In this document: positions 657-2,782 of the stretch, one piece after another
Layout of the letters: every line of letters starts with the position of its first letter
Numbering within the stretch: the stretch's first letter is position 1
Assembly (NCBI GenBank): GCA_001600875.1
Contig: BCLD01000013.1
Location: 546,033-610,032 of the forward strand
Length of the DNA: 64,000 nt
Reading direction: 5' to 3'
Origin: Solicoccozyma terricola
Taxonomy: Eukaryota > Basidiomycota > Tremellomycetes > Filobasidiales > Piskurozymaceae
Position numbers and translations under genes: made by a program
The notes under the pieces: model-generated
The model's database searches: none
Told to the model about the DNA's origin: nothing
Seen by the model: the letters and a program-made list of their open reading frames with translations, nothing else

Positions 657-2782
657 ATGTTCAGTAATAACAACCCTCGTGCTCAATCAGCTACAGCAGT
701 AAGACGGTCAGTATTCCCTTAATCATCCCCCCTTCCTTCCAGCAAACTAATACCATCTTGCCACTTTGACCCTTACATCCTACATTCCCACCGTTCCACC
801 GTCTGACCCGTCCCACCCGTCCCACCGCTCCACCCATTCCTCTACCCCAAAAACACATTCAGGTTGATGAAGGAATACAAGGATCTCACAACAGATTCAA
901 CTACTTCATCGTCTGGTGGAATAGGATCGGAGCCTATGTTTACAGCAGGACCGATAAAGGAAGATGATTTCTTTGAATGGGAGGCGTTGATAACGGGGCC
1001 GGAGGATACGCCGTTTGTGAGTGGAGGCGGCGGCGGCGAGTGTAGCGGCGAGCGTAGCGAGCATTCCATCCCTGAGCGTAGCGAAGAATATCTCGCGAGC
1101 GAAGCGAGCATTGATAGCGAACGTAGTGAGCAATACTCTCTTGCGAGCGCAGCGAGCACTCGTTTCTTCGCGGAGCGAAGAATATCGTCTTCCGCGAACG
1201 TAGTGAGCAATGCTCTCTTGCGAGCGCAGCGAGCACTCGTTTCTTCGCGGAGCGAAGACCAGGCTCCCGTTTCGGAACTCTTCTTCCGCGAGCGAAGCGA
1301 GCACTATGTCCCTGAGCATAGCGAAGAATATCCCGCGAGCGAAGCGAGCATTGATAGCGAACGTAGTGAGCAATACTCTCTTGCGAGCGCAGCGAGCACT
1401 GGTTTCTTCGTGGAGCGAAGACCATGCTCCCGTTAGGGAGCTCTTCTTCCGCGAGCGAAGCGAGCACTATGTCCCTGAGCGTAGCGAAGAATATCGTCGT
1501 CCGCGAACGTAGTAAGCAATGCTCTCTCGCGAGCGAAGCGAGCACTATGTCCCTGAGCGTAGCGAAGAATATCGTCTTCCGCGAACGTAGTGAGCAATAC
1601 TCTGTCTGTCTTCGCGCCCGCAGGCAAGACTATGTCCCTGAGCGTCGCGAAGAATATTTCTTCTTGTTGCGAGCGCAGAGCGAATACTCATATCGAGTAG
1701 CCAAGACTCCGGGCGAGGTTAACGAGCGATTACGTTCCCCGCGGGTTAACAGCGAGCAATTTAGTGCGCTCGTAGTATTGTTCTGGGCGTACGGAAGAAT
1801 ATTATCTTCTTGCGAGCGCAGAGTGAGAACTTCATTTCGCGTAGCGAAGACTCTCATCATTCGCGCGGATTTACTTTTGTTTCCCGCGAGTCAACAGCGA
1901 GCAATGCTCTCTTCGCATGTATCCAGCTATACCATCTATCCCTTTTCGTTTGGAGACGACAGATTGACGGATTGACGAGTTGATAGGCCGCTGGGGAACG
2001 TACCGGGCGCTTCGAAAATGAACGAACAGCGAAAAAGAAATGCCGGATCGTTTTTTTTGGAGAAAAATCTGACTTTGCATTATTTCCTCTTCACTTTGTT
2101 AACAGGAAGGTGGCGTATTCGCAGCTCGTCTTTCATTCGTGAGTTTTCAAACACGTTTCACACCGCCGTTCTCTCCCAGTATCATCACGTCCAAATTTCC
2201 CCTGATTATATTGTGTCCAAAACACCCTGTTTCTTCTCGTTCGACTCATTCCAGCCGAAAGACTACCCACTCAATCCATTCTCAATGACATTTGATCCTC
2301 CTATCTTCCATCCAAACGGTGAGCCAACAACACCCTTTTCCCACAAGCTCCCCACTTACAACTTACCTGACTTGTCTCGAACGAAACCTTCAACCCCACC
2401 CCACCCCCAGTCTACCCCTCTGGAGCAGTCTGTATCTCGATTCTCCATTCCCCAGGAGACGATCCTCTGCATTACGAGACAGCAAGTGAACGTTGGTCTC
2501 CTGTTCAGGGTGTAAGATCGGTGTTGATGAGTGTTTTGAGCATGTTGGCTGAGCCTAATGTGGAGAGTGGCGCGAACATCGAGGTGAGCGCGGATTTTTG
2601 GTCAGGGCAGAGAGGGAAAAGAATCACGGAAAAAGAACAAGGAGATACAGGAGGGAAGCGAGAGACTGATCTACATATCGTTGAGACAGTGTTGCAAGTT
2701 GATAAGAGACAATCCGAAAGAATATGAACGGATAGTGAGAAGACAGGTCAGACAGCAATTGGGGATACCCGGGGATGCGTAA
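657..2782 (+). CDS. UBC7: Ubiquitin-conjugating enzyme E2, Ubc7/UBE2G2 type
   Basis: Six exons: 657-706, 863-1016, 2106-2138, 2255-2318, 2411-2583 and 2690-2782, giving 188 residues. The E2 fold is complete: helix 1 RLMKEYKDLT, FFEWEALITGPEDTPF, then EGGVF on a 33-nt exon, the HPN motif (IFHPN), catalytic Cys in VCISILH, and the extended acidic loop HSPGDDPLHYE that marks the Ubc7/UBE2G2 subfamily. Known role of the family: K48-chain ubiquitination in ER-associated degradation, acting with Cue1/gp78-type partners at the ER membrane. The C-terminus is slightly longer than the yeast protein. Intron 2 (1017-2105, 1,089 nt) is ten to twenty times longer than its neighbours because it holds a repeat array; the E2 alignment across it is seamless (TPF then EGGVF), so the array is not part of the mature protein. 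Confidence 0.93.
1035..1920 (+). repeat. GC-rich interspersed repeat array inside UBC7 intron 2
   Basis: Short modules recur in mixed order: CCTGAGCGTAGCGAAGAATA (about 1071, 1311, 1473, 1551, 1637), GCGAGCGAAGCGAGCA, GCGAACGTAGTGAGCAAT, TTGCGAGCGCAGCGAGCACT, and a TTTCTTCGCGGAGCGAAGA hairpin. A block of about 100 bp at 1081-1180 is repeated at 1321-1420 with only about three changes, so a 240-bp unit has duplicated recently. Copies become degenerate after about 1640 and fade by 1920. The array lies wholly within an intron and carries no recognisable transposase or terminal repeats. Confidence 0.9.

Follow-up and report, generated by a model that had tools for sequence, protein, structure and literature searches.

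Introner-like elements are recognised by a similarity that extends over the entire intron, both ends included. The double-hairpin, or repetitive hairpin, elements of mitochondria are short GC-rich units with two hairpins, present in many dispersed copies, and minisatellites are made of tandem units of tens of bp, with local duplication. The element considered here is an array of GC-rich modules, contained within an intron of a UBC7-like E2 gene of the basidiomycete Solicoccozyma terricola (assembly GCA_001600875.1), in a stretch of 64,000 nt, called the window hereafter (contig BCLD01000013.1, positions 546,033 to 610,032, forward strand). Arrays built from the same modules are dispersed over the genome, and most of those examined lie in sense orientation directly behind a 5' splice site (donor), which suggests a repeat family living inside introns.

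As described in PMC4457414 and PMC9860276, introners likewise form an intron-borne family, found in many genes and in sense to them; in the fungal arrays, however, it is the array itself which is shared, and not the intron ends. The words 'tandem' and 'Basidiomycota' both have 0 occurrences in the main text of PMC9860276. The stwintrons and sister introns of Hypoxylaceae, as presented in PMC8469720, also bring extra sequence to the donor side, with similar copies in many genes, but there a second complete intron splits the donor, whereas 61 array segments contained no GTRAGT; complete internal introns were not found in these segments, which have few branch-point-like words and frequent GTGAGC. 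With the double-hairpin elements (see also PMC2800124), a 65-nt unit of the fungal arrays shares GC-richness, two potential hairpins and many dispersed copies; unlike them, it is nuclear, arrayed and located behind donors, and the support of its stems by compensating changes is weak. Minisatellites resemble the arrays in their tandem units and local duplication. Their unit is private to a locus, whereas the 65-nt unit is 92-100% identical across contigs, and a single module vocabulary serves 130 clusters, those examined being mostly donor-side and in sense. Terminal inverted repeat transposons are bounded by inverted repeats, while none of 12 nt or more was found at the UBC7 locus (window 900-2300).

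The exact boundaries of the 1,089-nt intron (1017-2105, GTGAGTGG...TTAACAG) agree with the original prediction. Its removal links ...ACGCCGTTT with GAAGGTGGC, for a protein reading ...EDTPF/EGGVFAARLSF, and the Pfam domain UQ_con (PF00179) is matched on both sides: downstream the match covers profile positions 75-120 (E=3e-11), and upstream it covers positions 14-42 but stays under the curated cutoff (E=8e-4). The 45-100 nt attributed to neighbouring introns proved too low for this gene, where the other introns, located by eye, measure 156, 116 and 92 nt. The module make-up described for the array was found again: GAGCGWAGCGARSA, for example, has 14 matches in the window with up to one mismatch, all within 1050-1653, against a mean of 0.11 in shuffles. 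For GCGAGCGNAGCGAGCA, with up to three mismatches, 16 matches are present in the window (1.15 expected), a single one of which, at 30106, falls outside the array. Besides the 139-nt duplication reported in Table 1, a 78-nt direct repeat (94%) occupies 1445-1522 and 1523-1600. Long poly-G or poly-C tracts were observed near genes (window 3717-3735), as well as in the tail of the array-bearing intron at C14:806646 (L013).

The 23.9-Mb genome contains 476 exact copies of GCGAGCGNAGCGAGCA and 111 of GCGAACGTAGTGAGCA, and none of either reversed pattern; GCTCCCGTNAGGGAGC, the second hairpin of the 65-nt unit (TGTCTTCGCGGAGCGAAGACCATGCTCCCGTCAGGGAGCTCTTC...), is present in 69 exact copies. The modules thus occur elsewhere, and the static local duplication that had been considered along with the original prediction is not what the search found. 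By merging module positions within 800 nt, at least 130 clusters on 23 contigs, some of them single modules, were obtained from among the matches listed; of the candidates met in the DNA searches, 40 out of 215 and 40 out of 89 were scored. The 36 clusters identified within the 5.25 Mb of contigs C1-C3 extrapolate to about 164 genome-wide. Arrays are built of modules of 16-26 nt and of the longer unit with two potential hairpins, for a median length of 308 nt and a maximum of 946 nt (n=81). Runs of N in or beside arrays (L038, L173) could point to an assembly artefact or a collapsed repeat, an explanation that is scarcely credible for 130 clusters on 23 contigs, with like donor placement in differing gene contexts among the 81 arrays examined.

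Outside this genome, none of 28 candidates reached E<=0.001 when the translated array was used as a protein query. For a sulfite reductase encoded in the window, the closest named proteins among the best 120 of 7,985 matches are basidiomycete (72% Gelatoporia, 77% Tulasnella), and two metagenome proteins reach 86-89%; a window protein of lower conservation matched a single hypothetical protein. The 17-mer GAGCGTAGCGAAGAATA was found in 47 stretches of a 257-Gb prokaryote set, against about 30 by our own chance estimate, and modules of type A, the only type counted, were absent from all of them. One 16-mer gave 31 stretches from viral contigs, with at most 5 modules of type A (L166), types B and C again not being counted. 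By the count of type A modules, no array of the fungal kind was seen in prokaryote or viral stretches. Eight of the 47 prokaryote stretches belong to one metagenome-assembled genome of Neisseriaceae, RGIG6070 (L090, L092, L106, L111, L119, L124, L128, L130); in the three displayed, GAGCGTAGCGAAGAATA lies within a larger hairpin-like repeat, with arms ACTCGTCATT...AATGACGAGT, unlike the fungal arrays. In the open-access papers searched, module strings were met in unrelated context only, and so were shorter strings, judged by titles and abstract starts among the matches listed; among those listed from keyword searches, there was no description of arrays abutting donors.

Placement was evaluated on 81 arrays: a first set of 70, which includes 37 on C1-C3 covering the exact matches listed there, and a later set of 11, derived from 12 stretches picked by module position alone (stretch L177 gave no cluster under the rule). 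Donor words were searched within 100 nt upstream of each array plus its first 8 nt; for the antisense count, the other strand was read from the far end of the array, and random positions were taken from the same loci. GTRAGT was found upstream of 58 arrays in sense and 5 in antisense (5/81), against 7.6% of random positions; within 30 nt, the figures are 43, 1 and 2.6%. Nine donor hexamers were found at 72 arrays in sense, 13 in antisense and 20.5% of random positions, and when the donor also had to follow an open frame of 150 nt or more, the figures were 66, 5 and 11.4%. GTGAGC was left out of the hexamers because the modules themselves contain it, and these counts replace those that included it (76/81, 19/81 and 23.7%). 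For the 37 exact-match clusters of C1-C3, GTRAGT was found at 24 in sense versus 1 in antisense, and the nine hexamers at 30 versus 4; for the later 11 arrays, the corresponding figures are 6 versus 2 and 9 versus 2. With the first 52 arrays, a previous count had yielded 39 in sense, 3 in antisense and 6.9% of random positions. The commonest donor word beside arrays is GTGAGT (50/70), and GTGCGT, GTAGGT and GTATGT also occur. Microhomology to the donor was considered as a driver and set aside as not separable, since GTGAGT may simply be the common donor of this genome and the reversed-sequence control is poor.

The intronic nature of the arrays was analyzed by running Pfam on the flanking pieces of loci picked because they were recognisable. 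At six of them, including UBC7, one domain is split by the array with its two parts in order (Table 1). In an acyl-CoA oxidase, the N-terminal domain precedes the array, and a middle-domain match, below cutoff, follows it. Matches on one side only were obtained for GTP cyclohydrolase II after the array (L010) and, before the array, for Cyt-b5, a second UQ_con gene, a weak protein kinase and a weak importin, while an ALAS-like piece matched Aminotran_1_2. Pieces named by eye RPS23, CYB5, SDHB, eIF3b and ERG6 had no Pfam match, and these names are unconfirmed. Intronic sense placement is thus shared with introners (GTRAGT 58/81 versus 5/81; six domain splits). The idea of a new dispersed repeat family expanding inside introns fits the dispersed modules, the sense placement of most examined arrays next to donors, the six split domains and the local duplications; what had been missed is the sense orientation, the abutment to the 5' splice site and the decay from 5' to 3'. 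Two pairs of divergent arrays, pointing apart, were also observed (C1:552841/C1:554019, L017; C14:794737/C14:795926, L016).

Table 1. Features of the UBC7-like gene (window positions), domains split by arrays (Pfam profile positions before / after the array) and arrays lacking the nine donor hexamers (contig:position).
Feature	Position	Strand	Remarks
UBC7-like exon 1	657..706	+	by eye; ATG 657-659 checked
Intron 1, 156 nt, without modules	707..862	+	GTCAGT...TTCAG, by eye
Exon 2, precedes array intron	863..1016	+	matches UQ_con positions 14-42 below cutoff (E=8e-4)
Intron 2, 1,089 nt, carries array	1017..2105	+	
5' splice site GTGAGT of intron 2	1017..1022	+	
Clean array, modules GCGAGCGNAGCGAGCA, GCGAACGTAGTGAGCA, CTGAGCGTAGCGAAGA, TTCGCGGAGCGAAGAC	1048..1600	+	spacing ~22-30 nt; end approximate
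139-nt local duplication, copy 1	1194..1332	+	family D5, 94%
139-nt local duplication, copy 2	1357..1495	+	family D5, 94%
65-nt unit copy, two potential hairpins	1242..1303	+	92% identity; C13:547274-547335
65-nt unit copy, two potential hairpins	1405..1466	+	97% identity; C13:547437-547498
Degenerate 3' array part	1601..1912	+	end approximate
Intron tail, ~190 nt, non-modular	1913..2105	+	3' splice site AACAG
Further intron, 116 nt	2139..2254		by eye
Further intron, 92 nt	2319..2410		by eye
Guanylate kinase	profile 4-77 / 79-178		split by array
NmrA	profile 15-95 / 118-228		split by array
ParA, NBP35-type	profile 1-31 / 36-129		split by array
TCP-1	profile 1-82 / 84-206		split by array
PMI	profile 1-41 / 117-142		split by array
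UBC7 (UQ_con)	profile 14-42 / 75-120		split by array
Array without nine hexamers	C1:44722		
Array without nine hexamers	C1:820301		donor GTGAGC
Array without nine hexamers	C1:1443309		antisense
Array without nine hexamers	C1:1675687		past stop codon (by eye)
Arrays without nine hexamers	C2:1375298 and C2:1423504 (GTGAGC)		
Array without nine hexamers	C2:1408306		GTGAGT 110 nt away, after stop codon
Arrays without nine hexamers	C6:337920; C10:147959 (masked upstream)		

Arrays are better preserved at their own 5' end. Mismatches to the module consensus average 0.80 in the first half and 1.36 in the last half, which is worse in 51, better in 11 and equal in 8 of the 70 usable arrays out of 81 (p=1.7e-7); on C1-C3, the figures are 23, 3 and 3 (29 usable of 37, p=1e-4). 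In an earlier test, the rank correlation was positive in 35/47 and negative in 12/47. The cleanest modules of an antisense array, in an intron of a MAF-like gene, are found by eye at its own 5' end, facing the acceptor; if the case is general, polarity would be a property of the array and not of the donor. Within CpG, 211 of 320 mismatches in modules are C>T or G>A, in line with decay; outside CpG, 87 of 176 C/G mismatches are of this kind.

Segments also appear to have moved between loci. The longest exact match between unlinked arrays is 75 nt (C14 versus C17), with further pairs of 52-67 nt among 2,198 compared, and many copies of the 65-nt unit, spread over different contigs, are 92-100% identical; within a locus, exact repeats reach 99 nt. 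As judged from these similarities, exchange of segments between unlinked arrays is recent. An alternative in which GAGCG-like sequence next to the donor expanded independently in each intron, as a minisatellite or by slippage and with no exchange among loci, would be in line with the GAGC-rich simple sequence that separates the first module from certain donors and with the local tandem duplications; the near-identical 65-nt unit and the 75-nt exact match cannot arise separately, so that this very improbable explanation is refuted for the whole family, though it may account for growth inside a locus.

When 700-nt tails and 600-nt upstream flanks were compared for 70 arrays, alignments between loci involved only low complexity, modules or a tail with the non-module motif CTCTTGTCAACAACT, which has 4 copies genome-wide, all of them on the 3' side of an array and no more than about 80 nt from it. 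Since tails and flanks align so little, array-bearing segments, and not whole introns, would have been copied, as far as this comparison shows. Whole-intron similarity, typical of introners, was not found for these 70 arrays, and the 3' ends of most introns are not fixed. These data bear on an introner-type spread, by which the RNA of excised array introns, or its cDNA, would be reinserted into genes, the distal parts having since decayed or been replaced. Such an RNA-borne copy predicts sense placement behind donors, and the tail beside the array at four loci would agree with it. Apart from this tail, the 70 arrays are flanked by nothing alike beyond low complexity and modules; exon ends before the donor are highly variable, the donor words differ (GTGCGT, GTAGGT, GTATGT), and one array lies antisense inside an intron (by eye). 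Arrays are also present in two adjacent introns of an NBP35-like gene, taken by eye as a single gene (C2:699648-700276 and C2:700697-701250, L014), which again argues against the introner route. We regard it as unlikely; it remains a real rival, because splicing does not account for the rarity of arrays without donors (see below). The intron at C1:820301, of 116 nt by eye, starts with GTGAGCGAGCGAAGCGAGCA, in which the donor runs directly into a single perfect module; when Y and N are allowed at two positions, this junction has one occurrence genome-wide. The intron is likely an early stage of an array.

Splicing words were counted in 61 array segments (22,059 nt) and compared with mononucleotide shuffles, branch-point and acceptor words being general consensus sequences and not measured in this fungus. 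Per kb, sense arrays contain 0.00 GTRAGT versus 0.54 in shuffles, 0.36 CTNAC versus 3.60, and 1.31 tract-plus-YAG words versus 3.42, whereas CTNAC reaches 9.29 in antisense. The counts fit a splicing filter, but only in part.

The recurrent unit can form two potential hairpins, GTCTTCGC-GGA-GCGAAGAC and GCTCCC-GTNA-GGGAGC. For 40 arrays, the mean folding z-score is -0.45 on the sense strand and 0.19 on the antisense strand, with values below -2 in 9 and 5 arrays, respectively. A few stem pairs are paired slightly more often than in shuffles (by about 4 standard deviations at most), most equal the shuffles, and the outermost is worse; CpG decay can mimic compensating changes and thus this slight excess. 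RNA structure is therefore at most weakly supported by folding and stem covariation. It is quite unlikely that the arrays are functional, serving as binding sites or as RNA structures that aid the splicing of long introns, or increasing expression from 5'-proximal introns: their position beside the donor, their early location in the domain in the six split genes (chosen as recognisable), the hairpins with a few stem pairs above shuffles and the 9/40 low sense scores would suit such a role, but the mean scores are close to zero, most stem pairs behave as shuffles do, and the growing decay in the 3' direction suggests that this part is little constrained. The folding and stem results do not support a function, and none is indicated for UBC7. 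An origin from U6 was also considered, on the ground that the 5' stem-loop of human U6 resembles one module, and was rejected, the U6 match of this genome having a different 5' stem. That match, the only one to U6 small nuclear RNA among 47 of 1,036 candidates scored, lies at C6:1069468-1069567 (L069, ~1501-1600; E 1.4e-19).

Taken jointly, segment copying, local growth and a splicing filter describe a dispersed repeat family at home in introns, a reading to which we assign a probability of roughly 0.45. Short pieces, between tens of nt and about 150 nt long, would be copied between arrays by ectopic template switching or by gene conversion, and now and then one would enter an ordinary intron near its donor. 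Arrays would lengthen by local tandem duplication near the 5' end, while the 3' part would decay, partly via CpG transitions. Splicing would select the survivors: with modules nearly devoid of GTRAGT and poor in branch-point-like and acceptor-like words, an intron with a sense array could grow without harm, whereas antisense modules would introduce CTNAC at many points. We consider the family probably a passenger, either neutral or weakly parasitic. That it represents a new class of intron parasite, which colonises existing introns at the donor end, grows one way, has been shaped to go almost unnoticed by the spliceosome when in sense and lengthens the introns of essential genes without cost, is a more tentative proposal, and a rather doubtful one.

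Several observations weigh against this description of the family. None of the nine donor hexamers was found at 9 of the 81 arrays (Table 1), and the array inside an intron of the MAF-like gene (L074, ~611-1155; by eye) is antisense, the single clear strand exception. Closeness to the donor may merely mirror short host introns, and the scarcity of arrays between genes is something we infer. Polarity was not significant in the later set (6 versus 2 with 1 tie, 9 usable of 11; p=0.15). Local duplication is not dominant everywhere: the longest exact repeat inside a locus has a median of 26 nt, and the best match to another locus a median of 32 nt. As to splicing, antisense arrays exceed the shuffles in CTNAC alone and are not rich in acceptors (per kb, CTRAY 2.45 versus 3.42 in shuffles, tract-plus-YAG 2.49 versus 3.43, branch-point-plus-YAG pairs 4.44 versus 4.68), and the sense modules are incompletely splice-silent, because the donor-like GTGAGC is enriched (6.53 versus 0.37 per kb). 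All word counts hang on a few repeated modules. Moreover, a strand filter leaves the scarcity of donor-less arrays unexplained, and targeting may exist. As a separate observation, a stretch resembling a transfer RNA (L048, ~1190-1300) lies beside an array 3' of a stop codon; ARAGORN, run with the bacterial code, made no call.

Gain in intron length is little explained beyond transposon insertion and the whole-intron copying performed by introners. A donor-tied, sense-biased and polarised family would be a further route to longer introns, with the order of growth readable in each array. Whether the survival of repeats at a given site is decided by splicing signals alone would become testable, and a single small genome would offer a natural comparison set of at least 130 sites.
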